64,000 nucleotides of DNA from NCBI GenBank assembly GCA_030141605.1, contig JAQGDQ010000390.1, forward strand, positions 79,501 through 143,500, in the 5' to 3' direction. Shown piece by piece: positions 14,213-46,134 of the stretch. The translations under genes were made by a program, and so were the position numbers. Position 1 is the first letter of the stretch, and each line of letters begins with the position of its first letter. This DNA is from Tubiluchus corallicola. Its lineage: Eukaryota; Priapulida; Priapulimorpha; Priapulimorphida; Tubiluchidae. The notes beneath the pieces are model-generated. The model had not been told where the DNA came from. It did no database searches and saw nothing but the letters and a program-made list of their open reading frames with translations.

Positions 14213-17200
14213 TTAATTTGATAATACTTTATCAACATTATTATTGGAAAACTGATTAACAATCTGCCGAACCATACAGTCAAACTCAGTAAGTACATTT
14301 GGGTCCCAGTCAACTTCTCGGATTTTTGCACAATAGTTTTCAAACGACTCTAAATGCAACAATTTGTTGTTCAACAACAAAACAACTAAAAATCCCAACT
14401 TTTGCAATGACAGCTTTAGGTGTCGTTTTTGCAGCACCTGATGCAACAGAGTAACCGACATCATTTCCTCAACATACTGGGTTACACCAAAATGGTTGAG
14501 CCACAAATTAACAAACTGCAGTTGAAGCATTTCTGAAACACATTCCGGTTGTGTGACAATCAGCGCTACATTCAAGTCAACTGTCACAGTTCCGATGGTC
14601 TTTTTTACAGCAGGCATAAGGTCCTGTCTGCGGAGAACAGTTTCCTCTGCAATTTTTAAGAGTGATATAACCTCATCAGTAGTCACAAGGTTATGCTGCA
14701 ATAAAAGGCACTTCAAAAAACGTTTTACTGCCATGATTACCTCTGATGGGGCAAAAGCATTATCAGAATGTACAAGAGCTGATGTCTCTATGATTTCATC
14801 ACTGGTTTCCTGGGACAATTCTCTGGCTTTTATGGTCTTTGCTATAGCAGCAGTCAGCTCTGACTGCAAAGCACTTTCTGTTACATGTGCTCTACACCAT
14901 GCCATAACTTTCTCTACTGCTATATGCACAGCTACTGAAAAGCATGTAGAGATAATACGAGTACTTGAATCATATGACAAAACAGATGGAATAACCGTGA
15001 TAAGTCTTTCGTGGCACAGTTTATAGGCTGTTTCCTGCACAGCATTATAAAGAAATAATTTAACATTTGTAGCTTCTGTGCAAATCTTCTCAGTCATTTG
15101 CTCATCAGATAAATCCTTAATAGTACACTCCTTCACAAATGTGTTCAATTTATCCAAAGCAGTTGCTTTAGCATCAGACACCAATGTCTTCTGGAATTTT
15201 TCAATGACACAAGAAGATACTCGGTCAGCAGTAAACTCTACAGACCTTTTAATATTAGGATTTTGATTATTAAAGAAATTTTCCTCTAGGTGTGATTTCA
15301 GCTGCTTGGACGATGGTGGGACAGACTCGGGTTTTGTCGATTTAGGTGTAATTTTCCTAGCAACACATTTACTGTTTTTACCCGTAACAAATTCACCCAA
15401 CAGCTGTTTTAGCTCAGCCAAGTATGGACAACAACTATACAAAATGGAGTGGTCAACAAGACCAAGGACACAATCTACCTGTTGACGTTTTAACAGAAGT
15501 TGCACTGGAAGGTCATTTTCACCATTACTCACAATTTCTAAGAAAAGCGTATTGGGAAAGATCGGCAGTTCAAACAGCCACCCAAGCATTGTCACACATA
15601 GTAAGGCGTTTAGGTTAAAAGACGATGAACCCATTTTTAATTCATCAGATAGATAAATCCTCAGCAAGAATTTAAGTACATTGAGGTAGTAAGGCAGACG
15701 AGGGGATACTTCATCCATCATGCTCAAATATTCAATAACCCAAGGAAGCGTAATAACTAATCGATGTGATTCGTAAGCCTGTTGTATGTGACACACAATG
15801 TCAATCGGTGGCAGAACACAGCTCCGTACATCAATTTCCGCATTTTGCACACTTTCGGGTAAACGTGTGGAGTTTCTATATGGCAGAAAAACAAGAAAAC
15901 CCAAGAACTTTGCAAGCAATCGAAGACTTTCTAGTGTGCTTGCATAGCTATTTCTCTCATCTTTGCCTAATTCTGTGGTGCAAGCATCACTTTCAGATAG
16001 TGTCACAGTCATGTCATTCAGTTCTGTGATCTGCGAAACTAAGCTGTCAATCAAATGCTGGTTAAATGCAACATCATTTGCAATTAAGATAAAATCGCGA
16101 AAAAATTCTTGCATCCCAGAGAAAGATGGTGAAGGGCAAGGTCCTAGCAATGTTGACGGAATAACAAATCTCTCTTGGAGACGCTTGAATTTCAGTGGAT
16201 CAACTTTTTTCAATTCTCCCAATAATCCAAGTGAATTTCCATCTGAAGTAATATTACATATATTGACCTTGTCTTTACACATTGCTAATAACTGAGCTAA
16301 AAATAGCCTAGCAAAGTGCAGATAATTTGTGATTTCTCCCTTCGCTGAGAATATGTAGCGAATCTTGCGGTATAATTTTGTGCCCAAGGACCAACCCGAC
16401 ACCGTGCGATTGCTTTCCCACTCCCTTATTACCTCATAGAACTCATCCCGTTGCTTCCGAAAAAGATGAAAAGACTTATCACTAGGGAAATTCCTTCTGT
16501 TATCAGTGTCAGCATGAAAAAATACACTACTAGCGGATGCCTCTTCAAATGATGGTACGCAACTATAATCATCCTTGCAAACCAAATCAATGTATTCTTT
16601 CAGATTTGCATTAAACAAGACTACCCTGGGATTATCAGATAATAAACGCAGCACTTTCTTGTCTAGTAAACCTACCAATGCTTTAAGGTTGTCTAAAACC
16701 TTTACTGAAAAATACACACAATTGTGAATGGAATTCAGGTATTGGTTAGGTTCTACTGCATGTAGCTCTGTGACAACTTCATTTTTGCACACTAAAAGTT
16801 GCATTATAAAATATAATTCTAGTGCTATGTTAGGCACCAGATTTTCTCCAATTATGCCAGAATAGACCTCTGCAAGTATATTCAGCTGTTCAACGTTAGT
16901 CACTTGTGACAGGTCAACAGCAACATTTTCATAAATTTTATCAAGCCGATGAGGTCTTGTTTTTTTGGGTGTGACAAATAACTGTTCTGCATTTTTGTAG
17001 CTGGAAGGTGACACTGAAACAGTCAAACAGTCTAAAGATTGGTTGCTTAACAGTTCAGAACTATTTTTCTTACTAGCACTGGAACTCGATTCCGATTCCT
17101 TAAACAAATTTTTCTTCGCAGATAAATTAGTGGAGTCATCCAAATATAGATTTTGAAACTTTTCACTGTAACTGGGTTTCAAAGCTTCATATGAACTATT

Positions 17201-17935
17201 CCCTGACAAAATAAATCGTTCACTTTCTGCCACATCTTCACTTTTGATAAGCATTGGCGTAATACGTCTGCTTTTCTTCTCACTTGAACCAATCGCTGAC
17301 ACAGGAAGTGGTGGAAAATCATCTGAACTCAAATTAAAACTAGCACAATTTGTCGGTGCACGTTGACCTTCAACTTCAAACTTCCTGTATAGTTCTTTTG
17401 ACTTGTTAGAATTGCGACGATTTCTACTGCATGGTCTTCTCTTTGATTTCTTACTTGGACTAGATAACGTGTCGCTCACGTTTTTCCCAAGTGAAATCTC
17501 TGAAGAACAGTCATCATTTATAAGACATGTCTCCCATTTACTTCGAGCACTAGATTCCTTTCCTTTGTTAAATGGCGTTAAGTGAGGCGAGTCCGGCAAA
17601 GTTGCAGGTGATACAAAAGATGATCCTCCATTAATTGGCGACGAGGTAAAAAGCTGCGCGCGACTTGATCCAGTTCCCTTCTTGTTACACAATTTTCCAG
17701 TTTTCATACTAACGGGCGTTTTTACGGGAGTTTGTTGATACTGAGTTTGCAAGACATTGTACGACTGGTCACGTAAAAAATTCACAAAGAACGGAATAAA
17801 ATCCTGCTTTATTTCATTTAACTGTTCTAGCTCCTTTGGTATTGCGCATGTTGGATCAGCAACATCACGGATCCACTGCAACAAGAATGTTGTTTTGATT
17901 TGACCACTAAAAAGTAAATCTAAAACAACCGCCAT
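14213..17935 (-). CDS. CDAN1: Codanin-1, intronless 1240-aa ORF
   Basis: Codanin-1 binds the histone chaperone ASF1, limits its delivery of histones to chromatin, and works with CDIN1; human mutations cause congenital dyserythropoietic anaemia type I. The N terminus WIRDVADPTC...FIPFFVNFLRDQSYNVL matches the family. Residues 203-210 (SSDDFPPL) and KKSRRITP (220-227) correspond to the ASF1-binding B-domain-like motif (SRRINPTP in human). TDNRRNFPSDKSFHLFRKQR, FYEVIREWE, GPCPSPSF, FFRDFIL, FNQHLIDSL and LAKFLGF are diagnostic, as is the Codanin-1 C-terminal region (ARKITPKS, KRSVEFTADRV). Length is close to the human protein (about 1230 aa). Start is the first ATG (MAVVLDLLFSGQI), which aligns with the family start. 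No stop, frameshift or intron interrupts the frame, whereas vertebrate CDAN1 has many introns. Confidence 0.97.
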   Translation of the reverse strand: MAVVLDLLFSGQIKTTFLLQWIRDVADPTCAIPKELEQLNEIKQDFIPFFVNFLRDQSYNVLQTQYQQTPVKTPVSMKTGKLCNKKGTGSSRAQLFTSSPINGGSSFVSPATLPDSPHLTPFNKGKESSARSKWETCLINDDCSSEISLGKNVSDTLSSPSKKSKRRPCSRNRRNSNKSKELYRKFEVEGQRAPTNCASFNLSSDDFPPLPVSAIGSSEKKSRRITPMLIKSEDVAESERFILSGNSSYEALKPSYSEKFQNLYLDDSTNLSAKKNLFKESESSSSASKKNSSELLSNQSLDCLTVSVSPSSYKNAEQLFVTPKKTRPHRLDKIYENVAVDLSQVTNVEQLNILAEVYSGIIGENLVPNIALELYFIMQLLVCKNEVVTELHAVEPNQYLNSIHNCVYFSVKVLDNLKALVGLLDKKVLRLLSDNPRVVLFNANLKEYIDLVCKDDYSCVPSFEEASASSVFFHADTDNRRNFPSDKSFHLFRKQRDEFYEVIREWESNRTVSGWSLGTKLYRKIRYIFSAKGEITNYLHFARLFLAQLLAMCKDKVNICNITSDGNSLGLLGELKKVDPLKFKRLQERFVIPSTLLGPCPSPSFSGMQEFFRDFILIANDVAFNQHLIDSLVSQITELNDMTVTLSESDACTTELGKDERNSYASTLESLRLLAKFLGFLVFLPYRNSTRLPESVQNAEIDVRSCVLPPIDIVCHIQQAYESHRLVITLPWVIEYLSMMDEVSPRLPYYLNVLKFLLRIYLSDELKMGSSSFNLNALLCVTMLGWLFELPIFPNTLFLEIVSNGENDLPVQLLLKRQQVDCVLGLVDHSILYSCCPYLAELKQLLGEFVTGKNSKCVARKITPKSTKPESVPPSSKQLKSHLEENFFNNQNPNIKRSVEFTADRVSSCVIEKFQKTLVSDAKATALDKLNTFVKECTIKDLSDEQMTEKICTEATNVKLFLYNAVQETAYKLCHERLITVIPSVLSYDSSTRIISTCFSVAVHIAVEKVMAWCRAHVTESALQSELTAAIAKTIKARELSQETSDEIIETSALVHSDNAFAPSEVIMAVKRFLKCLLLQHNLVTTDEVISLLKIAEETVLRRQDLMPAVKKTIGTVTVDLNVALIVTQPECVSEMLQLQFVNLWLNHFGVTQYVEEMMSVTLLHQVLQKRHLKLSLQKLGFLVVLLLNNKLLHLESFENYCAKIREVDWDPNVLTEFDCMVRQIVNQFSNNNVDKVLSN

Positions 17936-18438
17936 GCTTCTTTCGCAAGAATATGAATGATCGTCATTTCTTGGACTCGCGAAGAGTCATTGACTTGGTA
18001 CCCAAACAGGATGTCGAGTTTTTTTAATGAATAATTTTTAATAATTGAGTTATTTATTACAGTGTTTAAAAGCCCTTGCAAACGATTCCTTCACTTGTCC
18101 ACACCAGTTGAGCGGAACAAGACAAAGAATATTTGAAGAATCAAGAGAAATCAGAATGGGAAAACTAAAAAAAAAATCAAAATAAAATCTGCATTTTAAC
18201 ACGCATGCAATAATAAAGTTTAGCACAAAATTAAGATTTTGGAAAACAATCATGGCCACGGAAGAAGTGTCGCACGAAATTCTAGCATGCAGCATTAAAG
18301 GCATTTTTAATGTTAAGCTCAAATTATGACTTAAATATTTGTCCACACCATGGTTCTCATAGCACATGCTGCTATTATTAGTACAACACAATTGGTTTTT
18401 CACAAATTCTTCCTAACCCAACTGTCATATTAATATAA
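17936..18438. other. CDAN1 upstream flank
   Basis: About 500 bases between the CDAN1 start and the retroelement relic. No gene seen; presumably contains the CDAN1 promoter. Confidence 0.5.
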
Positions 18439-22480: not shown

Positions 22481-22559
22481 ATGTTGTCTTCAAAAATGTT
22501 TCGGTATGCCGCTGGCACAGTGGCTGCAGCTGGGACAGCGTACTTGGTGTACACCTGTG
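22481..22559 (+). CDS. AIFM2: FSP1 exon 1 (residues 1-26)
   Basis: ATG at 22481, donor GTAAGA at 22560, phase 1. A second in-frame ATG is at codon 6. Upstream TTTTTCTGACAG (ending 22470) looks like a splice acceptor, so a 5' UTR exon may exist. Encodes the hydrophobic N-terminal segment. Confidence 0.82.
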
Positions 22560-25500
22560 GTAAGAATTTGCTGCATTGCTAAGTGTTGTGCTAAGAGGAT
22601 TATTAGTTATTAGATTAAATTAGATTAAGAAATCAGCACATGTATTAAGTTATGTATGGCACAAACAATGTGAAATCTGTCTGCAATAACTTGTCTAACA
22701 CAGAGCTATAATCACCTGCAGGCTCAGTAAATGCTGTTTTACAAACTTTGTTATACATGGATTTTTATTAAACATGTTTGATTTTCTGACTTAAAGTAAA
22801 CCCATCCTGCTCACATGTGCAGGTTTGGTCCAAAAATTTGTATCAGATCAACAGAAAGCAGTCATTTTGTCACGTTTCAACTAATAGTTTACTGAGGTTA
22901 TCCATGAGACAGTTTGCTTCATACAAATATTGCCACGTGCGGGCAGTTTTTGTCTTAGATGTTTTTTTGCATCTGATAATTTGTTACAGACAGATTTTTT
23001 TATTATGCGGAGCTAGTGGGTTATTAGGGTTGCATTTTCTGCTAGTGTTTATTGATGCAATTTCAACATTACATGTGAAACTGACTCAAATAAAACCCGT
23101 AAAAGATTTGCCTATAAATCTAACAAGTTCTTCAGCATCCATTTTTTGCAGAAATCTTATCTTTCTTTAGTTGTTTAATCAACTTTCACAGTATGAAACT
23201 CCATGGGAATTTAAATGTACTTTACACGTTAAATGATGGATCAGATGGATCTTGTTACTTGTTAACTGGTATTCAATATTCAAAATGTGTTTTGGTGTTG
23301 CATGTTACACTTTATAACTAAATGCATACTGCAAAAGTTTTATTCTGAAATTTGACCTTCTGAATTTTAGCAAAAGTGACAAGAGAGTTTGTGACATTTC
23401 AGTATATTGTTAGCCATCTAACAAACATCCCAATATCAATAATGAGTGGTTTTTCTCACTTTTTGAAGATAAGCCAAATATCCTAAAGACTTGCAAATTG
23501 TGATGGGCTGATCAAAATTTTGTATCGAGCCGATCAACTTTGCTGTTCACTGATATCGATCGATAACAAGTCAGATAAAATATGTAGATCTATATTGCTG
23601 TTATAAAAATTATATTTAAACTACGTTGTCTTATCAGTTATTTTACATGTCAAATACCCACAAGACTCCAATAATGAAATTTCGTTTTTTAACTGTAATC
23701 AGTTATTTGATTTTAGGGCTTTATTAACTTTATCAATAAAGTAAAATAAAAGCCAAAATGTTAATGGAACTTTGAAGTCTTGCCGAACTACCTGAATTAA
23801 TAATTTCTATGTTAGGGGGCAACAATTTTCACCTCCTGGCCAAAGAATCAGAGTACATTCACAGATCCATAAAGCATACCTGAGTCATAAAAAAATTAAT
23901 AAGTTTTCATTCATCTTCACTGCAAACCAGCACGTTGTCTGAACACAAAATTTAGCAAGGTGGTGTGAAATAAGCAGCTCAGCAAAAGCAGTTGAATGAT
24001 CCAATCTCTTTTTAACAAAAATTCGCTGCATGTGTCTTTAAGCATGGTGAAATTTCACCAGGAAGGCAATTGAACGAAGTATGGTTGCCACCTGCAAATA
24101 ATTTTGCCATAACAGTACGATAAAGTTGTCATTTTACATTTTCTTATGAATTCAGCAATTTTTATGACGTGATCGGTTCAATTGTTTATTGAACTGATCA
24201 GTGTTTTCAAGCTGAGCCAACGAGAACTTGATCACTGACCACTGATTGGCTTGATTCATCACTGCAGTATTTTTTAACCATTGGACTGTAATAAGCCAGA
24301 ATTGACAAACCTTTGTAAACAGCTAATTAACTGAAGGAAGAAGGTTTCGAAACCTTGTGCTGTCAATTAGGATTTGAACCAAGAACCTTCGGGTATCAGG
24401 TCTCGTGCTTTACCATCGAGCTGTCAACCCACATGGCTTTACTACTCTCATACTAGTGTTAATAGAGTTCCCTCTCATACGAAGGGGGAATTCTCATACT
24501 AGTATTACATCATCTGTCAGAGCCACCTATCCACAATAAGGTGAAACTAACTAATTGATCAATGTGATCAGACATTTACAATTTCCTGCTGCATACACGA
24601 TATTGAAACTTGGTGAATGGACAAAGTAAATAATCACGTCATATCAAGTTTTATCATCGCAAGTAAACATCACAGTTTTTCATATCTGGCACAACGTTAA
24701 ATGATGGTGACGACTAAAAATATAAAAATGTTGCTCAATTCGAAACGTAGTCATTCCAGTACTTTTCCATTACCTCATACCATTAGCAATATTACATTCG
24801 GGCAGAGGACATTCGAGTTACATAGTAATTGATCAGCTACAGACTTGTGTCTCAGGGACATTTTGCCAAGAGTTCTTTCTTTGTACATTAAAATTATGTG
24901 CGTATCAACATTAACATCTTATGAACTGATAAGGTGAATTGTAAAAAGGTGCTCAAAAAGTAATTTGAGGTAACTTGAGTAATTTAAGTAAAAACATTAT
25001 GTACAGTAGACTGAGCTTTCAACTATTTGCCAATTCATCGTCTTCCTTTCTGGTCTTTATATATTGTTCGCAACTGAAAACCTGTAATTGAAATTAAAGT
25101 CTTATTCTACTACAGTAGTATATGTGCACATTAGTACCATTCATATATAATTTTTTTTCTTCCTATAAAATATAGTCCTGTCTCATTACACCCTCTCTCC
25201 AGATTTTTAGAAGTGGGTTTCCTGTTTACGAAAATGGGTTCAAAGCCGGCCAAGAACTTCTCAATTACCAAGAGTGATATGCGAATAGGGTGAAGACTAA
25301 ATGAACCCAAGACGCAGTCGCCCTCTTGTGGAGTTTGATACCATCGTTCATGCCAAATGAGCGTACCGTTGTCTTTCAATGACTTATAAATGTTTTGAAG
25401 ATATTCTAAGGCGTCGTGCACATGTTCTATAACATTTATGCTAACAAGAGAATCGAACGTTCCGGGTTTGGAAAAGGCTTCACCAGAAGAAGAAACAATG

Positions 25501-28500
25501 GTGGTGGAATAATTGAGAATTCGTCCATTTTTGTACGCGCATTCTTTTACACTTTTCATATATTCATCTGCCATGGGTTCAACTAACGTTATGTGTCTTA
25601 AGCTTGAAGTGGGCTTTGTCTGGATCATATATAAAATTTGCGTAAATGGTCCTGCACCAATTTCCGCTAAGTTGCCAAGATTCAGTGGCACGTGCTTGTA
25701 ATTTGAGAAGCCTTCCTGGTGCTCATCTGCCCGATCATTGTGTTGACCTTTACTGTTTTTCCACAGTAGAAATTCTTTCTCCTGCGCTTTTTTCCAGAGC
25801 ATCATCGGAATTTGGACAATTCCTGTTGCTGGATGTGCAAAACAAACTGGGGAGACTGACGTTTCTGCCATGAATTTGTCAAAAGTCAAAGTTTCACCTA
25901 AATTTGGACACTGGATCTGTATTTTTTGTCTTACGGATATTTTCTCACAACAGTGTTCACCTGTATATCCAGGATTACAAAAGCAGTAATTGAAGTACCA
26001 CCTACCACGTGGACAGGTGCACAGTGATTTGTTATCTAGATGCAACTGAGCATCCACACTGCAGCTTGAAGCAGGTCTGTAGGTTGCCCATTGATACATC
26101 TTACTCATGCCAAATATTCCAAAGCAAATCAGCATGCAAGCAGAAAAACCATGTGGTTTTAACAAAGCTATCGCTTGTGCTCTCATTATTTATCACTTAC
26201 AAAACTTTGTTGCAATGACGTTCTGGTATTACTGCCACATACTCTTCACGATGTAGGTCTTCAAAAGTGTTGTAACGAATGGTTTCTTATTTCAACAAAG
26301 GAAAGCTATACCTAGGAGACCATAGAACCTGCACTGTTATAAATCAGTTATGAACTGCCCATATGTGCTAATTACTAAAGCAAAGAAAACGAAGGTATTG
26401 ACCATAATTATCAATTATTTATTATGACAGAATATTCATGAATTACTCTGTCTAATAATGTTTTTCAGAGACATTTTTGTTGCTTCTTATATCCATATGC
26501 GAAGTACATACCAAAGTACATACCTTGCACATACCAGATCCATCTTTAAAAACCTTTGTCTACTTAAACGGCAGCATTTTGTAACTGTGAGGCAATTAAA
26601 ATTTTATTTTGATTTATGTAATTATTTACTCCCTACTTACTTTTACTTTGTACCTATTACAAGAGGTACAGATTTCCACTCGTATAATACTCGTTATAAA
26701 TATATAATATGTCCACCTGTTCAAGAACATATGACTTAAGTATATTATTTATGCATTAGTGTCCAATACTCCACAGCTAATCATTAGTAAGGTTTTTACT
26801 CAGTATTACCATGGATTAAAAAAGCATAGTAAAAATTTCTTTTTGGACACATATTTCTTCTCTTCTAATATTATTAATTGTAACTGTAATCATTTTTAGC
26901 TTAGTTAGCAGTATACATGACTGCTGAACTGACATGTTTTTTCTTTGTTTAATAATGCATCTAAAATAGTACCGTTTCATTGTTATCTGCATTTACTACG
27001 TAACCCTGTAATTGGTTCACTGTACTTTGGGTGGCCTGTACGTTATGTGGTGGTCTGTTCACCTTGTACAGGACTCCCTGGTCAATTTATTCTGTTGTAT
27101 CTTTGCTTTTGTTATTGTGTTAATTTGTTGTTATGGTTAAAATAAATGAATAAATATCATATGCTATAATGGCATCCTTTTATGTGTGTGTTTGCTTTCC
27201 TGTTCTTTCATTTGATAGTCACCTGTTTATGTACCATTATCTATTTGTTCATTTATTCATTTATTTGTACTTTAAGCAAGCCTGTGGCCTGTTACGATTA
27301 CTGTCGTAATTGATTGCAAAATTTGCGCCAATTGTAATTGAAATCGGTTTTGTATCTAGTCTTGTAATCAATGTAATCGTTTTCTGTAATCATTTTAAAA
27401 AGAATAATCCCACATTTTTTAAATTTATGCTAATAAAATAGTGTTTACCAGCTTTAGTTTTATTCTTCACATATTTTTCTTTTTTCCGCATACCAAGGAT
27501 GCCTTTCACTAGTATGCTCACTTCTTAGGCATCCTACTTGCATACTTGTTTTTCTTTTTTAACCTTTGATACTGTTTTTCACTGTTATAACTGTTTTTCA
27601 ACATGTATGTGACATGTAGATCTAATAAACTATGAACTGAACTATGACTTTGAAATCGTAACTCTCGGTTTATAACATTCTGACATGTCTGTCGACAGTA
27701 GGTGTACTATATTTGTCAAATTAAAATTGCTACTAAGCTACTTTCTGAAACATGTTTCGTCTGTTTTAGTGCGTGGGCGTCGGCTAGCTCTGCAAGCAGC
27801 AGAACTGCCTAATAAGCACGTCATAATTGTTGGAGGAGGTTATGCAGGAGCCAACTGTGCTATGGGCTTGAAAGGCAAGATGAAGGTTAGTAAGCACTCT
27901 CTTACACTTATTAATTTTTTTACTTTTGTCCAGCATTGATTCTAAGAAAGGTGTTTTAAAGGAAAAGGGGCCATCCAGATATAACGATATCAAGCGCTAG
28001 TGCCTGTCTAACTAGAGAATCGTGAAATGCGTACAACAGAAAAGAATTAGCCATGCAAATGTGAAAATACGTTTATGTGATAATAATTCTTTCACGTAAG
28101 TCATTCTTGAAAAAATTGTATATTCCCTTTCAATATTTTGTAAGAGTAAGTTGTATTGAGCATTAGTATGAGATTGTGTCCGGTTTTCCTTTTAACTGGT
28201 CTGTGTTTAAAATTTTTACATGGTTTGCTGTTTACCAGTATAATGAACTTACAGGCATTTATATTGTCTTAGGTATTTAAAAATATGTTTAACAGTTTAA
28301 ACTGAACCTGGATTTTAATTTTTGCACTCGTAACCCAAAGGTCCCGGTTCAAGTCCAAGCTCAGATCTGACTTTTTCATATTTACTTATTTTCGTTCAAG
28401 TCTAAATTTTGTTGTAATTATTGGTGCATTCCATTATTATAAGTAATGTAAATAATTAATTTACCTTTCTGCAATATTGATTTTTATTTCTAGTACACGT

Positions 28501-31500
28501 TAGTTGATGCCAAAGATAAATTTCATCACAACTGGGCAGCTATGAGATCCTGTACAGAAGCAGGTAGTCACTTTTATTTTCATTTTCTGTGAATTGTTTA
28601 AAAACTAGTAAAGATGTACGAAAAACACCATAAACAGGGAGCCTGCATGCATAATCTGTGTAACTGCGAGCATGAACTTTTGATGTGATGCAGTGTTGGG
28701 CTTGATTAGTAAATGGGTGGATGATTGTTTTTGGACAGTTTTAACAGCAATACTGCATCCGGCTATCTATATCATTGAGAGAGGATGTCCTTCCACAACC
28801 ATCAACATAGTAATAAATAGTCCTGTTGTTTCACAGCGCTGAACTTTACAAAAATTGTGCTCTCAAATTTGTCACTGGAATTGTTTAATGTGTAGTATTA
28901 TTAATTATGTACTTGGTCACATTACTATAAGTAGACCTGCATGATACTCTTTTTTGCATTATGCCATTCCTTATGGCGCATTCAGATTAGACAGTTTTCT
29001 CTCGCAAGTTCTATCTGAGAGTAAACTTGCAAGTGTGAACGGTTTGGCAAGTTCTCTCTGAGAGTAAACTTGCAAGTGTGAACGGTTTTGCAAGTTTTCT
29101 CTGAGAGTAAACTTGCAAGTGTGAACGGTTTGGTAAGTTCTCTCTGAGAATAAACTTGCAAGTGTGAACGGTTTGGCAAGTTCTGTCTGAGAGTAAACTT
29201 GCAAGTGTGAACGGTTTGGCAAGTTCTCTCTGAGAGTAAACTTGCAAGTGTGAACGGTTTGGCAAGTTCTGTCTGAGAGTAAACTTGCAAGTGTGAACGG
29301 TTTTGCAAGTTCTCTCTGAGAGTAAACTTACAAGCACAAGAATTTGTGAGAGAACTTCCAAAGCTGTTCACACTTGCGAGTTTACTGATTGAAAGAACTT
29401 GCACAAGAACTTGCGAGAAAACTCTCTATAATGAACGTTCCATTAAAGTCATTGTACACATTAGAGTTTTTTATGCAATTGTTATAATCAATCACTTTAT
29501 TGTAAATTTGCTTTAGATTTGTTAGAGATGTTTCTGATTGATATCTAAATATCTTATCAAATTTTATCAGTCTTTTGATTCTTTACATTGCATTCAAGGT
29601 TTTGCGCAGAAAACGTTCATACCTTACGAACCTTTGTTCAGTGATGATTTTCTACGTGCAAAAATCGTAAACATTGACACAGAAAACAGGACAGTAAAGG
29701 TAACATGATTAGTCTTGCATGTAGCTTCTCAGTTGTGTTGCTTTAGTCTAGGTTAGACTTCGTTTTAGTTTGTCTAAACATTTGTTGGCATGCTAGTTTA
29801 ATTATTGAAAATACTTTGTGAACAACAAAGATATGTGCCTTGAAATTACCATTCGTGTGAAAAATTCATTGTGTTCCTGATCAAATCAAATGTTCCAGAT
29901 GCATTAATCATTATTAGATAAAGTAAACATGTTTTGACATTAATGGCTTTTCTCTACATTAATTTCTTTAAAAACTTGAGAAGTATATGTATTCTTTCTG
30001 CTTGCAACATGCATATGAAACATTACTTGTTGTTCTGTTTTTTGCAAAAATAAATGATCATTGTGCTCAAAAATGGCTAAAGCACGATTTACCTGGCATC
30101 CGGAATATGTATGCAATATGCAGATGTGGAATAGATAAAATTGGTTTATATTGTTTTCAATGCACCTGTTTGTCAGACTGCGTTTTTTTTCTGCAGCCTT
30201 TTCCTATTGATTTTTTATATATGCAGCTATTCCGCAAGTAGGTAACGCATTCCGGATGCGAGGTGAACGCCACTTAAAGGGTAAACTTGGCATCATCTGA
30301 GATAGTCAAATTGTTGGACACTGTTTTTAGAGTTTTAAGTCTAATCTGTGCCATCAAGATGTATTTGAATGTGATTGTTATCTTGCTTAGCCATTCTTTT
30401 AACTTTTATGTGCTTTTATGGTTATCAAGAATATTTTGAGCATTTTTAAAGCTACGGAAATTACAATGTCTTTTAGTTTTTTCTGAACATTCATTACTAG
30501 TGGTTTAACCTTTTTGAGTGATGTGTGGATTTTCCTGGATATAACCTGTGCAAGGTTATACCAGGAGACCACGTAGCAGCACAGCACCGCCTGATGGTTA
30601 TGGATCTCACCATAGCTGTTACACGTAGGCAGAAAAGGAAAGTCATGACGGAGAAAAGGATTAAATGGTTCAAACTAAAAGAGCAGAGACTTAAACAACT
30701 CTTTAAAGACAGATTGCTCAGAGAGGTGGACTACGAAATGGAAGAAATAAACGAATGGTGGAACAGGCTGAGTGAAAATATTATAAGGACTGGAAAAGAA
30801 ATTCTCGGGGAAAGTAGTGGTAAAATATGGGAGAACAGAGAAACATGGTGGTTTGGAGAAGAGGTGCAGCGGAAAGTAAAAGAGAAGAAAATGGCAAAGA
30901 AAAGATGGGAAGAAACCAAGTTGGACAGGGACAGAGAGTATTACAAACAGTGTTGCAAGGAGACGAAAAGAACTGTAGCTGTAGCAAAAGCGGAGGCGTA
31001 TGACAACCTTTATGAAGAAATAGACACCAAGGAAGGACAGGGGAGAGTTTTCAAGTTGGCGAAGCTGAGAAATAAGAGTACAAAGGACATTAGGCATATA
31101 AGGCAGATCAAAGATGAAAGGGGGCAAGTAATACGAAAAGAAAGCGATGTCCTGAGGAGGTGGAAGGAATACTACGAGAAGCTGCTGAACGAGGAAAATG
31201 AAAGACTGGTTAGGGATGATGGAGAACCGAATGAACTGGAGGTAACAGAGGTGACAAGACAGGAGGTGGAATTAGCATTAAAGAAAATGAAAAATGGCAA
31301 ATCTACGGGACCTGACGGAATACCGGTGGAAGTTTGGAAAGTCTTAGGAGAAGAAGGGATTGACATACTGCACCAACTGATGAGAGAAATAGTGGAGAGA
31401 GAGGTAATCCCGGAAAAATGGAGAGAAAGTACTCTGATACCGATTTTTAAGGAGAAGGGAGACATCCAGGACTGCGGAAATTATCGGAGGACTTGGAACG

Positions 31501-34500
31501 GTTGACGGTATATTCACACTTCGACAGAATATAGAGAAACACCAGGAAAAGCAAAGGGCACTACATATAGCTTTCATAGATCTAGAGAAAGCATATGATA
31601 GGGTACCACGGCAAGAAGTGTGGAGAGGTCTGAGGGAGAGAGGAGTGCTAGAAAAATATGTAAGAATAGTCCAAGAATGCTACAAGAACGTGACAACTAA
31701 AGTCCGGAGTACAGTTGGTATAACAGACAGTTTCCAAGTAAAAGTCGGCTTACATCAAGGATCGGCACTAAGCCCCCTACTGTTCAACATAGTGTTTGAT
31801 GTCATCACAGAGAGTGTAAGGGGAAATCCACCATGGTGTGTTTTGTATGCGGATGACATCGCTATAGTGGCTGAGAGTAGAGAAACACTGGAAGGAAAAT
31901 TAGAAGCATGGAGAGCCGCTTTGGAGAGCAGAGGAATGAGGATAAGTAGATCCAAAACGGAGTATCTTACGACAGACATGAATGGGGATCAACGAGAAAC
32001 AATAAGATTGAACGGGGCAGAGTTGAAAAGAGTAAAGACCTTTAAGTATCTGGGTTCAATGATAGATGAGACTGCAGGAATGGAAAAGGAGGTGAATTTC
32101 AGGATTCAGTGTGGTTGGAATAACTGGCGAAAAGTTTCGGGTGTGATATGCGATAAGAGGATTCCAGCGAGACTTAAAGGTAAAGTTCACAAAGCAGTGG
32201 TCAGACCCGCCCTAATATATGGGCTGGAAGCAGCACCTCTAAAGAAGACCGAAGAGAAGAAAATGGATGTGGCAGAGATGAGGATGTTGAGATGGATGGT
32301 GGGAGTAACAAGAAGGGATAAAATCAGGAATAGTAATATTAGAGGAACAGTGAAAGTAGTGGAAGCCTCGAAAAAGATACAAGAGGCAAGATTGCGATGG
32401 TATGGGCACCTGAGAAGGAGAGTCGGGGAAGATCACGTGGGAAGGGAGGCCATGGAAATGGAAGTGCTGGGAAACAGAAAAAGAGGACGACCCAAGCTGA
32501 GATGGTTTGAATGCATAAACGGAGACCTTAGAGAGAAGAACATAAATGAAGAGATGGTCAACAACAGGAATGCATGGAGAAAACTTATTCACAACGGCGA
32601 CCCCGCATAGGGAAAAGCTGAGAAGAAGAAAAGAAGAGTGATGTGTGGATTATTAATTGAGTGTTCAACATTTTTCTTTCATTTTGTAATTGCAGTTTGG
32701 CAATGCATTAATTTCTATTGAGGTTTCTTTTCAATCATAACCACTTATTTTGTGTGATGCATACTTCTAACATTTGATTTCATTATTTTGTGACTTCATG
32801 GACAAGAAAGTTGGTTATGTTATTAACTGTTTGCTCTTAAGTGACAATTTTTGTTTGATTTCTTCCAAATGCTTTACTCAGCAATTCACCAATTTCAATT
32901 AAGAATTTTGTTATGATTTTACTTGCATATTTCTTTCAATTATAGTTTATTGCACTTTTTCATTTACTTTAAATAAAGATTTCCCATCACACAAATGTTG
33001 TCTTTCTAAATAAAGTTTTTGAACCTACACATCTTAGTGCTCTGCGCAGTACTTAGATTGTATCACTTCTTAGTTGGAAGATGGCAAAGAGTTAAAATAC
33101 GACTACCTGGTGGTTGCTACGGGAACAGGAGGACCATTTCCGGGGAAACTTCCTCTGGGAGTAGATTCAGAAATGGCTGTGAAATCATACACTGCGATAC
33201 ATGAGAAGGTAAAACAATGTTTCGGCTAACAGCAATGGAATCATCCATTTTTATTTTTTATTTTCTCAGGAATGAAAGACGTTACCAGGTGACATTTTTC
33301 CGTGTGGTTGGGTAGTGCGTGTTTAGTCGCTAATGTATTCTCTTCATGCATACTAAAGATTTGTGTGCAGAAGTTATTCAGTTGGGAGAAGAGGACCACG
33401 ATACAAAGCCCCCAAAAACTTAGCTTGAAATTTTACATCGTGTCCATTTAATCTCGCTGCTACAAAAGTCGCATTTCTAGAAGCACCAAATTTAAATTCC
33501 AGTGGTAACTATTAACACGGTCCTTATTGGGTAAGATACTGAAGTGGTTGTTGTTAGTACATTTACATTCTGAAAAAACTAGTGAAACAACTGTGAATGT
33601 GCAAATTATTGTGTTAAAATTTGTGAATAAGCTTAACAAAAACTATTTTTCCGAGTTACTGATGCATGCTGGGATTGTGGATTTCTGATGTCTTGGTCAC
33701 TGACATGACGTCAGTTGTCGTGAATGCTAACTTGACTACGATTCATGTAAAATTGTAAATAACTAGAAATATTTTCTGTTAACCTGAGTTTCAGCAATTT
33801 TTCGAGACTGTAAAACAGATCTTTTAAATTTTCTTCGCATTATTCTAATTGTCGAATAGCAGCAGAGTGCATACAGGGTCTTTCAACCCATAAGAGTCAT
33901 GTGTGAGAGTGTATGCAGAGATAATTGTTACCTGCCTGCATGTCTGTGTGTTATTTCTTCTTTTAACCTTGAGATTTGATAATTCTTGGCTTTAGCATGC
34001 TAATCCCACGTTGATAGTATCTAAATTTTGAAAATTATGAAGATATTATTCTCATCAACAACTTTCATCCATTTTCGCATTTTTGTGTTTTCATCACCAT
34101 TTTTTTCTTTCTTTAAAGTATGTTTTTTGTGTTCATTTTTGCCATTTGTTAAGTTAACACTGACAAGTTTTCTTGTAGGGTTGACTTGATGTGTCTTCAT
34201 GTGCTGATGATTTATAAATTTTGTATGTTACATGTTACATATTATTCAGCATGTACACATTGGCATTGTATATAATAAACCTAGTCTAATGTAACATACT
34301 GCAATTAATTTTACTCTGTAGTACAAATATACCTGTATTGTATGCTACTATATTTTTATTGTGTGTTGTATCTCTAATGCGAAATGAAGAGAAAAAATAA
34401 GATTTTCACTAGCTCATCTTATAAAGTTTTGTCTGTTTACTAGTTGTGTAAAATTTTAGTGAAATGATTCTTGAGCCAAATAGATGCTTGGAAATTTGTT

Positions 34501-37500
34501 TGTGATAATTAAATTCCTGTTTCAGCAACGAAATGTTCTGTATTCGTTAGTTTGTCTGATTATTGTAATTGATGTAAACCTTCTTGTAGATAAAGGCTGC
34601 ATCCAAGATAGTTTGTGTGGGTGGTGGTGCAGTGGGAGTTGAGTTAGCTGGTGACATAAAGGAGGACTTCAGTGACAAGGAAGTAACGTTAATCCATCCG
34701 CGTCAGGAACTGTTGAATTATCCAATCGTGTCGAAGAAATTACATGACAAGGCAAAGACTCGTCTAGAAAGCTTGGGAGTCAAATTGCTATTAGGTAATG
34801 GCATCGTACATGAGACATTTCCATGTTATTTTTTGCTAATTTTTAGGAAGTGATATTTTTTGAAAATCGAAAGCGAGATTCTTAATCCAAAACCAGTTTT
34901 AGTGAATACTCTAGAGAAATATGTGTACTTATAATGCACCGTTTTGACGTAAACATAGTACAATAAGTCCTCGCTTAATTTGTTTCAATGACGCTTGACA
35001 TTTTGATACCTTTTTTCACTTTAACAATGCACGTTTCTTTTAACGATGATTTTTTTACTTTGCTTAAAGCCGATTTTTATTTTATCACCAACAATGTTGC
35101 CTAATTTGAAGCATTAAAGCAGTACATATTGCTTTATTCTGTTCTAAAAATGCACTAGTAATTAAAACAGTGCAATTATATGTGTATGTTTTTGCTTCCT
35201 GGCTGATTACTAAACGCCAGCCAATAGTATCAAGTGAGATCTATTTGCAGTTTATACACCTCCAATTTATAGCCACCTGGGTGCAAACTTTATGGGAAGG
35301 AATTTTGCCTGCAAGCTGCTGCTATAGCAACCAGACTAAGCATCTAGATAAAATTGCTCTAAGGCAGCCCCAGGTTTGGTATGACTATGCAGTGTTTATT
35401 GTTTATCAGCTACTTAGGCTTGATAAACAATTACGAAAGTTAAATACAATTAGAATTACAAAGGTTAACGAAAGAGAAACCGCTACCTAGGTATTGATAA
35501 GAAAGATAGGTGATTTCAAAGAAGCAGAAAAAATCAAGCAGGTAGAAAAATGAATAAAACTCATAAAATATTTAATTTATATAATTTAAGCAGCATTGAT
35601 TTTAGAACTTGGATGAACTGCCTTTAGAACGTATCTCTCTATGTTCGCATTATTTTAGGAAATTTTACATTATTTTCTATGGAAGTCTTGGTTTCGTTTA
35701 ACGATATTTCGCTTACCGTCACGTTTTGCCAGAATGCCTCCACTAACTTGTTTCAAATCCGCGATCCATCCTGATCCGCGAGGTTTCCGACCCGCATCCT
35801 GCTTGCATGGCTATTTTTAATTCAGATCAACATAATAATCTGTATTTTTAGTTATCCTTGGTTTAAATATACTAAAATATTTTAAATCAGTAGAAATTGC
35901 ACCCTGTTGTAGTGTGTCCACTGGGTGGTTTGATTTTCATTGATTAATTGCAACTGTAAGAGGGAATATTTGAATATTCTCTATCTGATATTATTGTATT
36001 ATTTTAATAGTAAATAAAAGATTTTACTACTCTTGCTGCTGCTACTATTACTAGTACAGTAGTACGTTCGTTTAATGATTAATGAAGCTAATTATTATTA
36101 TTTTCATTTCATTGTTATTCATGCTGGTAGCTTGTGATGAGTGTCATTCCAGATGTTATTTTCATCCCGCAATGTGCATATTATTATTTGTCGCGTATTA
36201 ACATTAATGAAAATTAAAATCCGCAGAGATCCGATCCGCCAAACTTTTGATCTGCATCTTGTCCGCAAAATTCCTGATGTTCAATAGTAGATCCACAGAA
36301 AATCCTGCAGATCTTGGTCCGATCCTGTCAGCAGGATCGTTGTCCGCTCATCACTGATTTACAGTCACTTTTTGTAAAACACGAAGATAGACAAAAATGA
36401 TTTTTGAATGGAGCCGTTGGCATTTAGCTTATCTATAGGCTGTAAGCTGCAGCCTAGGACCCCTCAAGCTTTGATAACATTTGGTGAAAATTCTGTTTTT
36501 CCACTATAGTTATGTTGAAATATGTGCTAATTTGGTTTGCAATAAATAGTAACATAGTGGTATTTCTTAAAGGATATTTTTATTGACATACAAAAGATAG
36601 TTATTCTAGTTTATTTAAAGCATTTGCAATAAGTTTATGTAAATTTCACTAAAATGTATCACTAGTAAAAAATATTTAACATGGATGTAGTTGAGTTAGA
36701 GAGTGGCTTTGCCTGAGGGTCCCTGTAGTTTCATTAGCCTAGGGGTTCTCTGAGATCATAATCCGGTCCATTGGTGTTTTTTATCGAGCTTTTTGCATAT
36801 AGGGGAGCGTGTGCTGAATATGAAGGAAGTCCAGGCTAATGGAGGAGTTGTGTGCACCGATAAGAACAGCCAGATTCCAGCTGAGCTAGTGTTGCCATGC
36901 ACCGGTCTGCGCGTGCACACGGTTGCTTATGATAACAGTCCATTAAGTATGTATTGTATATTTTTCATATTCATACAAATTGCTCCAAACAAGGCCATTG
37001 GCCACTCAAAGTAAGTGGCTATAGATAAAAAATATAAATACGGCCCCAGAACTAGTGTAGCATTCATTAGAGTGCAGATTTACAATTTTTCTGCAGGGCT
37101 GTATCGTGATGCCAGGTAATGGTTTTCCGTACAATCAATAAAAATTCTAATTCTTTCACAATTTTTAATCACTCATTGCTAAAATTTAGTGAGTTCTTCC
37201 TTGTGACTCACCCTCCACAAATCAATTGAGTATTTTTTTGCATAATCTTGTTCAAAGGCACAATCAAAAACATTAAAAACTTAACCACCTTGGATTAAAC
37301 AAAAATGGAATTGTTAGGATTTCTCTGGAATAAGTGTAAGTATCTTCTAATGTTCTTCTTGAAAAAGTAAAATTGTAGTTGAAAAACTGGGAAACTTGTT
37401 GTATAATTATTTGTACATAATTGTATAATAATGTGCAATATTGTATAATTATTACAGATGCAAAGACTAACAAGCAGGGACAGTTGAAAGTGAACGAATA

Positions 37501-38592
37501 TCTCCAAGTTGATGGGTATGAAGAGGTCTTCGCTGTCGGCGATTGCAACGATGTCCCAGAGACGAAACTGGGCATGTTGGCAACTCAGCAAGGAACCTGT
37601 GCTGCAACAAACATTCAGAATCTTGTTAACGACAAACCATTGAAGAAATATTCAGGTACTGAGAATGGTTGCTTTTACCGCAAAGATTAACTCGTAGTAA
37701 GTGGACAAGTCATTTGACAGAGGTAGCTAGAAAAGGAGTAAACTTGCAGTACTCTATACCAATTGATAAGCAAACATACCGTATTTTTTGGCATGTAAGA
37801 CTTACCTTTTTCCAGCATCATAAAAAACATCCTGCATCATATATGTTGAATGTAGAGGCCTAATGAAGGCCACAGCTTTTATTACTACACATGTAATATG
37901 CAAACATAGTATGGCCAAATATGGTAAGGTTAATAACCGTTTGCACCAAGCCAGATCTATTTGTGATTTATATGCATCCAGACACCTGGGTGTGAACTTT
38001 ATGGGAAGGAATTTTACCTGCACCCTATTCCTGTAGCAACCAGACTGGGTATGTACATGAAATTGTCCCAGAGCTTAGGTTTCAGTGTTGCTAACTGCCT
38101 AGTGTTTCAGCGTTAACGAAAGAGAAACTGCCTGCTAGGTATTGGTAAGAAAAGTCAGTGGTTTCAAACGTGCAGAAAGAAATTAATCAGTAGAAATTTG
38201 AATAAAACTCATAAACGTTTAATTTATGACTTTAAAGCAGCATTGATTTTGCCTCTGAAACGTATCTTAATTCCTTTACATTACTTTCTGTGGAGGTCTT
38301 GGCTTCATTTAGCTGCGTTTCGCTTAACGCCGCATTAACATCATTAAGCACGAACTTGCTGTACTGTTGAATTGAGATTGATGCTCAATCTCTTTTAGGT
38401 GTTGCTCCATTCTGCTTATCGATCGGTCGTTCAGGCGGAGTGTTGCGTATGCCATTTTTTGGCGGTGTTGTTTTACCTGGAAATTTCCCAGCCAAGATGT
38501 TAAAAGGAAAGGATGGTATGGTAGCCCAAACCTGGAAGATCATGGGGCAGAAATGTCCACCGGATAGCGAGTGGAAATCTGAAGCTAAATAA
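22481..38592 (+). CDS. AIFM2: FSP1/AIFM2-type NAD(P)H:quinone oxidoreductase, 9 exons, 413 aa
   Basis: FSP1 (AIFM2) is an FAD flavoprotein that reduces ubiquinone and vitamin K with NAD(P)H and suppresses lipid peroxidation and ferroptosis. Exons are 22481-22559, 27770-27885, 28494-28563, 29599-29699, 33074-33208, 34590-34794, 36803-36946, 37458-37655 and 38399-38592; all junctions keep frame. Motifs: FAD dinucleotide fold VIIVGGGYAGANCA (G48-G53), DKFHHNWAAMRS, ATGTGGPFPGK (about 137-147), the second NAD(P)H Rossmann fold CVGGGAVGVELAGDI (G178-G183), EVTLIHPR, LPCTGL, FAVGDC (308-313). The length exceeds the human 373 aa because of about 40 extra N-terminal residues that include a hydrophobic stretch AAGTVAAAGTAYLVYT (10-25). 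There is no N-terminal MG myristoylation site. Intron 1 (5.2 kb) carries a nested gene on the other strand; intron 4 carries a LINE. Confidence 0.95.
23498..24264. mobile_element. Possible DNA-element remnant with inverted ends
   Basis: Left end TTGTGATGGGCTGATC and the reverse complement of the right end CAGTGATGAATCAAGCC are roughly similar, and both ends are rich in GATCA/TGATC motifs. No target duplication found and no coding capacity. In FSP1 intron 1. Confidence 0.3.
24366..24432 (-). mobile_element. tRNA-like SINE head or tRNA relic
   Basis: On the minus strand CAGCTCGATGGTAAAGC resembles a tRNA D-arm/A box, and 40 bases on GGTTCAAATCC is a good B box. The acceptor and anticodon stems do not pair, so this is not a working tRNA gene. 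A related fragment GGTCCCGGTTCAAGTCC is on the plus strand near 28341-28357. Confidence 0.5.
25131..26186 (-). CDS. Intronless gene: membrane anchor, EGF-like module and SAM methyltransferase (351 aa)
   Basis: Nested on the opposite strand in FSP1 intron 1. Residues 14-32 are hydrophobic with basic residues before them (type II signal anchor likely). C42 and C56-C80 contain CTCPRGRWYFNYCFCNPGYT then GEHCC, an EGF-like pattern. From about 165 on there is a class I methyltransferase fold: motif I LAEIGAGPFTQ (173-183), acidic LVEP (E203), SLVSINVIEHVHDALEYL (246-263) and the post-motif strand NGTLIWHERWYQ (273-284). By topology the catalytic domain would face the ER/Golgi lumen, so a glycan or secreted-protein substrate is possible, but the substrate is unknown. 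I do not recognise a named orthologue. An uninterrupted 351-codon frame with ordered motifs in AT-rich DNA argues it is a real gene. Confidence 0.78.
   Translation of the reverse strand: MRAQAIALLKPHGFSACMLICFGIFGMSKMYQWATYRPASSCSVDAQLHLDNKSLCTCPRGRWYFNYCFCNPGYTGEHCCEKISVRQKIQIQCPNLGETLTFDKFMAETSVSPVCFAHPATGIVQIPMMLWKKAQEKEFLLWKNSKGQHNDRADEHQEGFSNYKHVPLNLGNLAEIGAGPFTQILYMIQTKPTSSLRHITLVEPMADEYMKSVKECAYKNGRILNYSTTIVSSSGEAFSKPGTFDSLVSINVIEHVHDALEYLQNIYKSLKDNGTLIWHERWYQTPQEGDCVLGSFSLHPIRISLLVIEKFLAGFEPIFVNRKPTSKNLERGCNETGLYFIGRKKIIYEWY
27770..27885 (+). CDS. AIFM2: FSP1 exon 2 (residues 27-65)
   Basis: TTTTAG acceptor and GTTAGT donor. Completes the split Val codon and encodes the FAD-binding strand-turn-helix HVIIVGGGYAGANCAMGLKG. 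Confidence 0.95.
28494..28563 (+). CDS. AIFM2: FSP1 exon 3 (residues 66-88, plus first base of 89)
   Basis: CTAG acceptor, GTAGTC donor, ends in phase 1. Encodes YTLVDAKDKFHHNWAAMRSC, matching the family's LVDMKDSFHHNVAALR. Confidence 0.95.
28977..29436. mobile_element. Foldback-like element with internal 43-bp minisatellite
   Basis: Outer ends are inverted copies: AGTTTTCTCTCGCAAGTTC on the left and, reversed, AGTTTTCTCGCAAGTTC on the right. Between them are about seven 43-bp direct units containing AAACTTGCAAGTGTGAACGG (about 29006-29335), then one unit in the opposite orientation (29345-29390). It lies in FSP1 intron 3. Confidence 0.75.
29006..29335. repeat. 43-bp minisatellite, about 7 copies
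   Basis: Direct units of 43 bp inside the foldback element. Because 43 is not a multiple of 3 and the unit lacks minus-strand stops, long repetitive ORFs occur in all three minus frames; none is a gene. Confidence 0.92.
29599..29699 (+). CDS. AIFM2: FSP1 exon 4 (residues 89-122)
   Basis: AAG acceptor, GTAACA donor, phase 0 at the end. Encodes GFAQKTFIPYEPLFSDDFLR and on to ENRTVK. Confidence 0.94.
30532..31490 (+). pseudogene. LINE ORF fragment 1: endonuclease tail and RT N-terminal part
   Basis: Open frame up to a stop at 31505. Contains KMKNGKSTGPDGIPVEVWKV (RT block before the palm) and WRESTLIPIFKEKGD. The frame ends at the deletion junction. Confidence 0.88.
31497..32610 (+). pseudogene. 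LINE ORF fragment 2: RT palm/thumb and C-terminal region
   Basis: Open frame from the junction through an ATG at 31618 to a stop at 32610. Holds the palm aspartates (FIDLEKAYD, YADD) and the C-terminal zinc-less GRPKLRW block typical of this LINE group. Confidence 0.9.
33074..33208 (+). CDS. AIFM2: FSP1 exon 5 (residues 123-167)
   Basis: TTAG acceptor, GTAAAA donor, 45 codons. Encodes YDYLVVATGTGGPFPGK, the family's conserved ATG-PFPGK loop. Confidence 0.96.
34590..34794 (+). CDS. AIFM2: FSP1 exon 6 (residues 168-235)
   Basis: GTAG acceptor, GTAATG donor, phase 1 at the end. Encodes the NAD(P)H-binding fold IVCVGGGAVGVELAGDIKED and EVTLIHPRQELL. Confidence 0.96.
35237..35723 (+). repeat. 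Dispersed repeat, copy A
   Basis: Shares with 37952-38334 the ordered blocks AACTTTATGGGAAGGAATTT, TAGCAACCAGACT, GTTAACGAAAGAGAAAC, ATGAATAAAACTCATAAA and TCGCTTA. Same orientation, FSP1 intron 6. Family not recognised. Confidence 0.75.
35745..36360. mobile_element. Possible DNA-element remnant rich in GATCCG motifs
   Basis: Clusters of ATCCGCGATCC-like motifs at 35755-35805 and of GATCCG / GTCCGC motifs at 36220-36355, ending in GTCCGCTCATCACTG. The two clusters are inverted with respect to each other in part. No flanking duplication found. Confidence 0.3.
36803..36946 (+). CDS. AIFM2: FSP1 exon 7 (residues 236-283)
   Basis: ATAG acceptor, GTATGT donor, phase 1 at both ends. Encodes GERVLNMKEV and ELVLPCTGLRVHTVAYDN. 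Confidence 0.93.
37458..37655 (+). CDS. AIFM2: FSP1 exon 8 (residues 284-349)
   Basis: ACAG acceptor, GTACTG donor. Encodes LKVNEYLQVDGYEEVFAVGD and C313, the FAD-contacting GD motif, and a helix that continues to PLKKYS. Confidence 0.96.
37952..38334 (+). repeat. Dispersed repeat, copy B
   Basis: Second copy of the element at 35237-35723, about 100 bases shorter, in FSP1 intron 8. Ends only 65 bases before the last exon. Confidence 0.75.
38399..38592 (+). CDS. AIFM2: FSP1 exon 9 (residues 350-413, stop)
   Basis: TTAG acceptor; stop TAA at 38590-38592. Encodes GVAPFCLSIGRSGGVLRMPF and the C-terminal TWKIMGQKCPPDSEWKSEAK, aligned with the family's TSWKTMRQSPP end. Confidence 0.95.
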
Positions 38593-45826: not shown

Positions 45827-46134
45827 TCAAAATTTTGTCTGTTCTACATTTTGATCCACCTCACTCTGCTGGTAGCCATAGTTCTCGTAACATTCACTCG
45901 ATGATTCACTGTCGGGCAGGTCTTCGAAGAGCGGTCCCTTTTGTATGCAGTAAGCTGTGCTGTAAAAAACTGCAGATAATAGCAAGGTGATAATCGACAA
46001 TCCATGAATCACAAAACGAAACTTTTCCTTGTCATAGATCCAGCACGCTCCAGTTTTTCCACATTCATCTTCTTGCCACAGAATGCAGGTGCTGTCAACG
46101 AGGGCACCGGAGATTAGTGGACCAGGAATATATG
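45827..46134 (-). CDS. SLCO exon 9 (residues 706-807, stop)
   Basis: CAG acceptor; stop TGA at 45829-45827. Encodes YIPGPLISGALVDSTC, then CWIYDKEKFRFVIHGLSIIT (TM12) and an acidic C-terminal tail. Confidence 0.95.

Follow-up and report, generated by a model that had tools for sequence, protein, structure and literature searches.

The 64,000-nucleotide stretch of Tubiluchus corallicola DNA analysed here (the window) contains a minus-strand open reading frame whose predicted product joins a membrane anchor, a cysteine-rich module and a methyltransferase domain. To our knowledge, few of the animal enzymes that methylate proteins or sugars within the secretory pathway have been identified. The locus raises the question of whether this frame is a genuine gene, how it arose, and in which compartment and on what substrate its product might act.

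A complete gene lies antisense within an intron of an FSP1/AIFM2-like gene

The frame opens with an ATG, preceded one codon upstream by an in-frame TAA, and encodes 351 amino acids before a TAA stop (Table 1). Because its 352 stop-free codons exceed the longest run found by chance, 223 codons, in 60 simulated windows (second-order Markov sequences of the window's composition, with maxima averaging 151 codons), we conclude that it is a real gene. On the opposite strand, tblastn with human AIFM2/FSP1 matched exons from 27817 to 38559 that mark the host as the gene of an FSP1/AIFM2-like oxidoreductase, and a first exon upstream of these joins exon 2 in frame across a GT..AG intron. The nested frame therefore lies antisense within intron 1 of the host gene, as the first-pass annotation had proposed. 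That annotation had also called the gene intronless, which holds for the coding part, a single open frame; the 5' UTR may still contain an intron.

Table 1. Coordinates of the nested gene, its predicted protein segments, its host gene and the galactosyltransferase frames near two paralogues (window positions unless a locus is named; aa, amino acids)
Feature	Position	Strand	Basis
Host FSP1/AIFM2-like gene, exon 1	22481..22559	+	In-frame join to exon 2
Host gene, intron 1, holding the nested gene	22560..27769	+	GT..AG, in-frame join
Host gene, exon 2, VIIVGGGYAG FAD-binding motif	27770..27885	+	tblastn, join; 3' end read from donor GTTAGT
Nested ORF, complete, single open frame	25131..26186	-	ORF list, chance simulation, 11 paralogues
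Predicted signal anchor/transmembrane helix, aa ~12-35	26082..26153	-	Hydropathy peak in 12/12; model helix 12-35
Stem, aa 36-55, length varies among paralogues	26022..26081	-	Alignment, hydropathy
EGF-like Cys module, aa 56-80, C-x-C-x9-C-x-C-x8-C-C (C56 C58 C68 C70 C79 C80)	25947..26021	-	Alignment, model
Linker and N-terminal helices of the enzyme, aa 81-165, invariant C93 and C115	25692..25946	-	Alignment, model
Predicted class I SAM methyltransferase domain, aa 166-346	25149..25691	-	Pfam above cut-off; 12/12 members; fold match
Motif I, E175-I-G-A-G-P-F-T-Q183, putative SAM-binding loop	25638..25664	-	Invariant residues
GT31 ORFs flanking two family members	L049:1271-2248; L050:766-1488; L050:6698-7363		PF01762

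The FSP1 gene region also carries non-LTR-type reverse transcriptase frames (30522-32610, plus strand; PF00078, E 5e-27). Elsewhere in the window we observed, on the minus strand, a Codanin-1-like gene (14213-17986; PF15296, E 1.9e-27) with an unusually long stop-free exon of 1257 codons, apparently intron-poor, and exons of OATP-type organic anion transporter genes (45827-61831; PF03137), one of which adjoins a tandem repeat of 39 copies of a 34-bp unit (46224-47563). Two further arrays occupy 3126-3894 (12 copies of 64 bp) and 29004-29334 (8 copies of 43 bp), the latter resembling sequence downstream of paralogue L005.

The gene belongs to a constrained family of twelve

Searched with the protein, the 343.5-Mb assembly from which the window comes yielded 12 full-length loci on 11 contigs, the window gene included, and two divergent members used as queries recovered the same 12 loci and, beyond them, only noise. 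Each member is one open frame with no internal stop, and translation and alignment revealed a layout common to all of them, comprising a short N-terminus, a hydrophobic anchor, a variable stem, the Cys module and the methyltransferase. The domain order originally described from a single frame (anchor, EGF-like module, class I SAM methyltransferase) is thus corroborated by homologues, 12 in this genome. Close pairs have dN/dS ratios of 0.07-0.30, and the sequence comparisons show strong purifying selection on the family. Against its paralogues the window gene has a dN of 0.26-0.50; since dS is saturated in each of these comparisons while replacement change is low, the window gene is old and constrained. 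It groups in the tree with L002 (65% identity) with moderate support.

The proposal that the gene is a retrocopy or a recent acquisition fared less well. We found no intron-bearing parent among matches in the window's assembly, which may be incomplete, and no poly(A) tract 3' of the window gene's stop; recent retrocopying was rejected on these grounds, with no intron-bearing parent of high synonymous identity, and on saturated dS. The recent pairs were instead duplicated with kilobases of flank: L003/L006 and L011/L012 each have several kilobases of flanking DNA in common and L008 and L009 lie 12 kb apart, as expected from DNA-level duplication. The alignment of L005 with L003 is confined to the coding region, and L003 and L006, at a dS of 0.08, could be uncollapsed alleles instead of paralogues. 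A foreign origin was rejected as well, with no sign of a donor within the prokaryotic, viral, phage and plasmid collections: profile-derived scans of viral contigs and 84,980 prokaryotic species gave no convincing relative, the matches of a motif-I DNA pattern in the same contigs and species were unrelated proteins, and no convincing relative came from tblastn of phage and plasmid sequences.

The putative catalytic domain is predicted to adopt a class I methyltransferase fold

The window protein exceeds the Pfam cut-offs of both Methyltransf_11 and Methyltransf_23, and all 12 members match both models. A structural model that covers the Cys module and enzyme of L003 and draws on the alignment of all 12 members (pLDDT 80.3, pTM 0.82) has class I methyltransferases as its nearest solved structures (Foldseek E 2e-9), the best match reaching Z 15.7 over 197 aligned residues with an rmsd of 3.4, and the window protein, modelled on its own, gave the same fold at lower confidence. 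The SAM-binding fold, initially suggested from the letters of the window, is therefore predicted with confidence, as the seven-stranded, Rossmann-like kind, and membership of the class I SAM-dependent methyltransferase superfamily is well supported at the level of modelled fold. Motif I reads E-[IVL]-[GA]-A-G-P-[FR]-T-Q in all members, with E175, A178, G179, P180, T182 and Q183 invariant and proline replacing the third glycine of GxGxG, and the acidic ribose-binding position at the end of strand 2 (E203) is likewise kept in all 12. Candidate active-site elements are H279, which is invariant, and the H299-P-I motif.

In fold, strand order, motif I and acidic strand-2 end the family resembles the Methyltransf_11/12/23 group (UbiG, NodS, NTMT1, phosphoethanolamine methyltransferases). 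Whereas the enzymes of the UbiG/NodS/NTMT1 group are soluble, the family described here adds an anchor, a stem and an EGF-like module, and identity is about 11-15%. NodS, NTMT1/2 and phosphobase enzymes are near the top of the fold matches, and toxoflavin, protein N-terminal, Nod-factor amine and phosphoethanolamine enzymes are tied or nearly so in Z; with neighbours of such different substrates, the fold does not choose the substrate. Since amine and peptide N-methyltransferases are among them, the modelled fold is no pointer to sugar O-methylation. A viral fold library returned generic methyltransferases only.

The cysteine module is EGF-like

Five cysteines of the module (C58, C68, C70, C79 and C80) are invariant across the family. 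The signature C-x-C-x-P-G-[YF]-x-G-x2-C occurs in most members, and short PROSITE-style EGF patterns matched 12/12 (EGF_1-type) and 10/12 (EGF_2-type), the window protein passing both. A beta hairpin (residues 61-64 and 67-70 in the window-protein model) is present in the L003 model too, and EGF-type chains are the best, though weak, PDB matches of the module. Of the earlier assignment to EGF, the C-terminal signature and the hairpin stand, but the canonical six-cysteine order, with its 1-3, 2-4, 5-6 pairing, and the Pfam cut-offs do not: five of the six cysteines align (C56, C58, C68, C70, C79), and no Pfam EGF model scores above cut-off, the lowest E being 0.008 across the family and 0.5 with the window protein. 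The EGF-like domains of heregulin, Notch and epiregulin share with the module the C-terminal signature C-x-C-x2-G-[YF]-x-G-x2-C and the hairpin, whereas the family lacks the canonical Cys1, has C-x-C in place of C-x3-5-C, and adds the adjacent Cys80. Because of the missing Cys1, the extra cysteine, the loss of C56 in one member (L009) and the sub-threshold Pfam scores, the sequence is best described as EGF-like, not as an EGF domain. We found no EGF-methyltransferase fusion in the open-access literature, and the family counts as novel when set against PDB, Pfam, NCBIfam and the open literature searched.

Anchor, cysteines and sequons favour a lumenal location

The anchor and stem are present in all 12 members, with stems of about 11-30 residues. 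Across the family nine cysteines are conserved (C56 with the one exception given above). A further two, C291 and C333, are both present in 7 members and both absent in 5, a co-occurrence as for a disulfide, although a single clade is concerned and the pattern possibly reflects one event. N-glycosylation sequons recur at three aligned positions, in 9, 7 and 7 of the 12 members. As read from sequence, the conserved cysteines, the co-occurring pair and the recurrent sequons, together with the signal anchor and stem, favour a lumenal location, which is likely rather than demonstrated because the charge bias flanking the anchor is weak; the hydrophobic segment may instead be a signal peptide that is cleaved off, or the topology may be reversed.

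Plant lumenal methyltransferases are supplied by MFS_5-type Golgi SAM transporters (PMC9946043). Three MFS_5 genes are found in this genome; the frames of two of them, L087 (C1988:157346-158284) and L088, look intronless and the third, on C1461, is multi-exon. Linkage of L087 to family member L002 was considered and rejected, as the two are on the same contig but 58 kb apart, too far. MFS_5 is a generic and widespread family, which weakens its support for lumenal SAM supply.

The same arrangement of short N-terminus, signal anchor, stem of about 20 residues and SAM methyltransferase is described for zebrafish Tomt, a Golgi-enriched protein (PMC5462536). TOMT/LRTOMT thus matches the family in layout but differs in its COMT-like catalytic domain, without a described Cys module; no COMT-type Pfam model is among the family's matches up to E 1, and membership of the COMT/TOMT type, lacking Pfam support, was provisionally set aside. 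Plant Golgi pectin and xylan methyltransferases of the QUA2 type, which presumably belong to another family than the window gene, have no EGF-like module and act on the plant cell wall.

Glycans are the leading candidate substrate

The only substrate lead that the genome offers is the adjacency of galactosyltransferase genes. Members L011 and L012 each have a single-exon GT31 frame about 2-3 kb away (PF01762, E 1.3e-39), and L012 has a second, shorter one on its opposite side. With about 50 GT31 matches genome-wide (343.5 Mb), we calculate that about 0.01 chance neighbours would be expected, in a test chosen after looking. As L011 and L012 are segmental duplicates, the adjacency counts as one ancestral observation, and no GT31 frame was seen beside the window gene or in the flanking DNA read for other members. 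O-methyl sugars occur on the glycans of invertebrates (PMC6272458, PMC6935376), and the enzymes that methylate nematode N-glycans were stated to be unknown (PMC6422873), still so in 2023 (PMC7614267). The glycan O-methyltransferases of molluscs, nematodes and planarians and the sialate 8-O-methyltransferase of starfish are alike in proposed reaction and compartment.

Combining these observations, we chart a model of a protein held in the Golgi or ER membrane by its short N-terminus and its signal anchor. Its lumenal part would comprise the stem, the EGF-like disulfide module and the class I domain, which, with SAM supplied by a lumenal importer, would act on secretory cargo and most likely methylate glycan hydroxyls. 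We assign a probability of roughly 0.45 to the family being type II, Golgi-type lumenal SAM methyltransferases that act most likely on glycan hydroxyls. The narrower proposition, in which this multigene family consists of animal Golgi glycan O-methyltransferases and its combination of anchor, EGF-like module and class I methyltransferase is new, is more doubtful, with odds well short of even. Sequence or computation shows the frame and its nesting, the family with its common architecture, purifying selection, the predicted fold, the conservation of cysteines and sequons, and one locus flanked by GT31 genes. We infer the orientation of the anchor, the Golgi location, the catalytic activity, the glycan substrate and the SAM supply. 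Lumenal methylation of glycans or proteins is the best reading, albeit unproven, with glycan O-methylation leading and protein methylation second.

Among the alternatives, the one that survives best, though still improbable, holds that these enzymes methylate side chains or N-termini of secreted proteins in the lumen, with the EGF-like module as a cargo adaptor. The protein N-terminal methyltransferases NTMT1 and NTMT2 are among the top structural neighbours (Z 15.3-15.7), and a fungal ER-resident methyltransferase modifies the N-terminal histidine of secreted LPMOs (PMC10349129); yet Z does not separate the neighbours' many substrate classes, and galactosyltransferases are the only genes to which the neighbourhood offers a link. 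Somewhat less probable is a membrane-anchored enzyme that methylates a lipid or a small molecule, be it a natural product, a phosphobase or an isoprenoid, a reading to which phosphoethanolamine and prenyl-diphosphate methyltransferases point as fold neighbours, although these matches are generic, and an EGF-like module with many conserved cysteines would be unexpected in a metabolic enzyme. If the enzyme were instead ER-anchored and faced the cytosol, its CxC...CxC...CC cluster might bind zinc without disulfides; two CxC pairs could make a zinc knuckle and the positive-inside bias is weak, but the EGF signature within most members' cluster, the EGF-type chains among its weak PDB matches, the loss of C56 in L009, the paired C291/C333 and the recurrent sequons make this distinctly unlikely. 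The intronless coding part, the dispersed loci and the unusual proline in motif I might suggest a family that is decaying or has lost catalysis, or a recent functionless retrocopy, a reading rendered very improbable by twelve frames without a stop, strong purifying selection, saturated dS and conservation of motif I and E203.

The family is conserved and membrane-anchored, bears lumenal hallmarks and has one locus amid galactosyltransferase genes, which makes it a directly testable candidate. Should its substrate be protein, it would still be one of the rare animal examples of lumenal methylation; if the glycan reading is true, the family would supply some of the first enzymes to be identified molecularly behind the methylated glycans of invertebrates.
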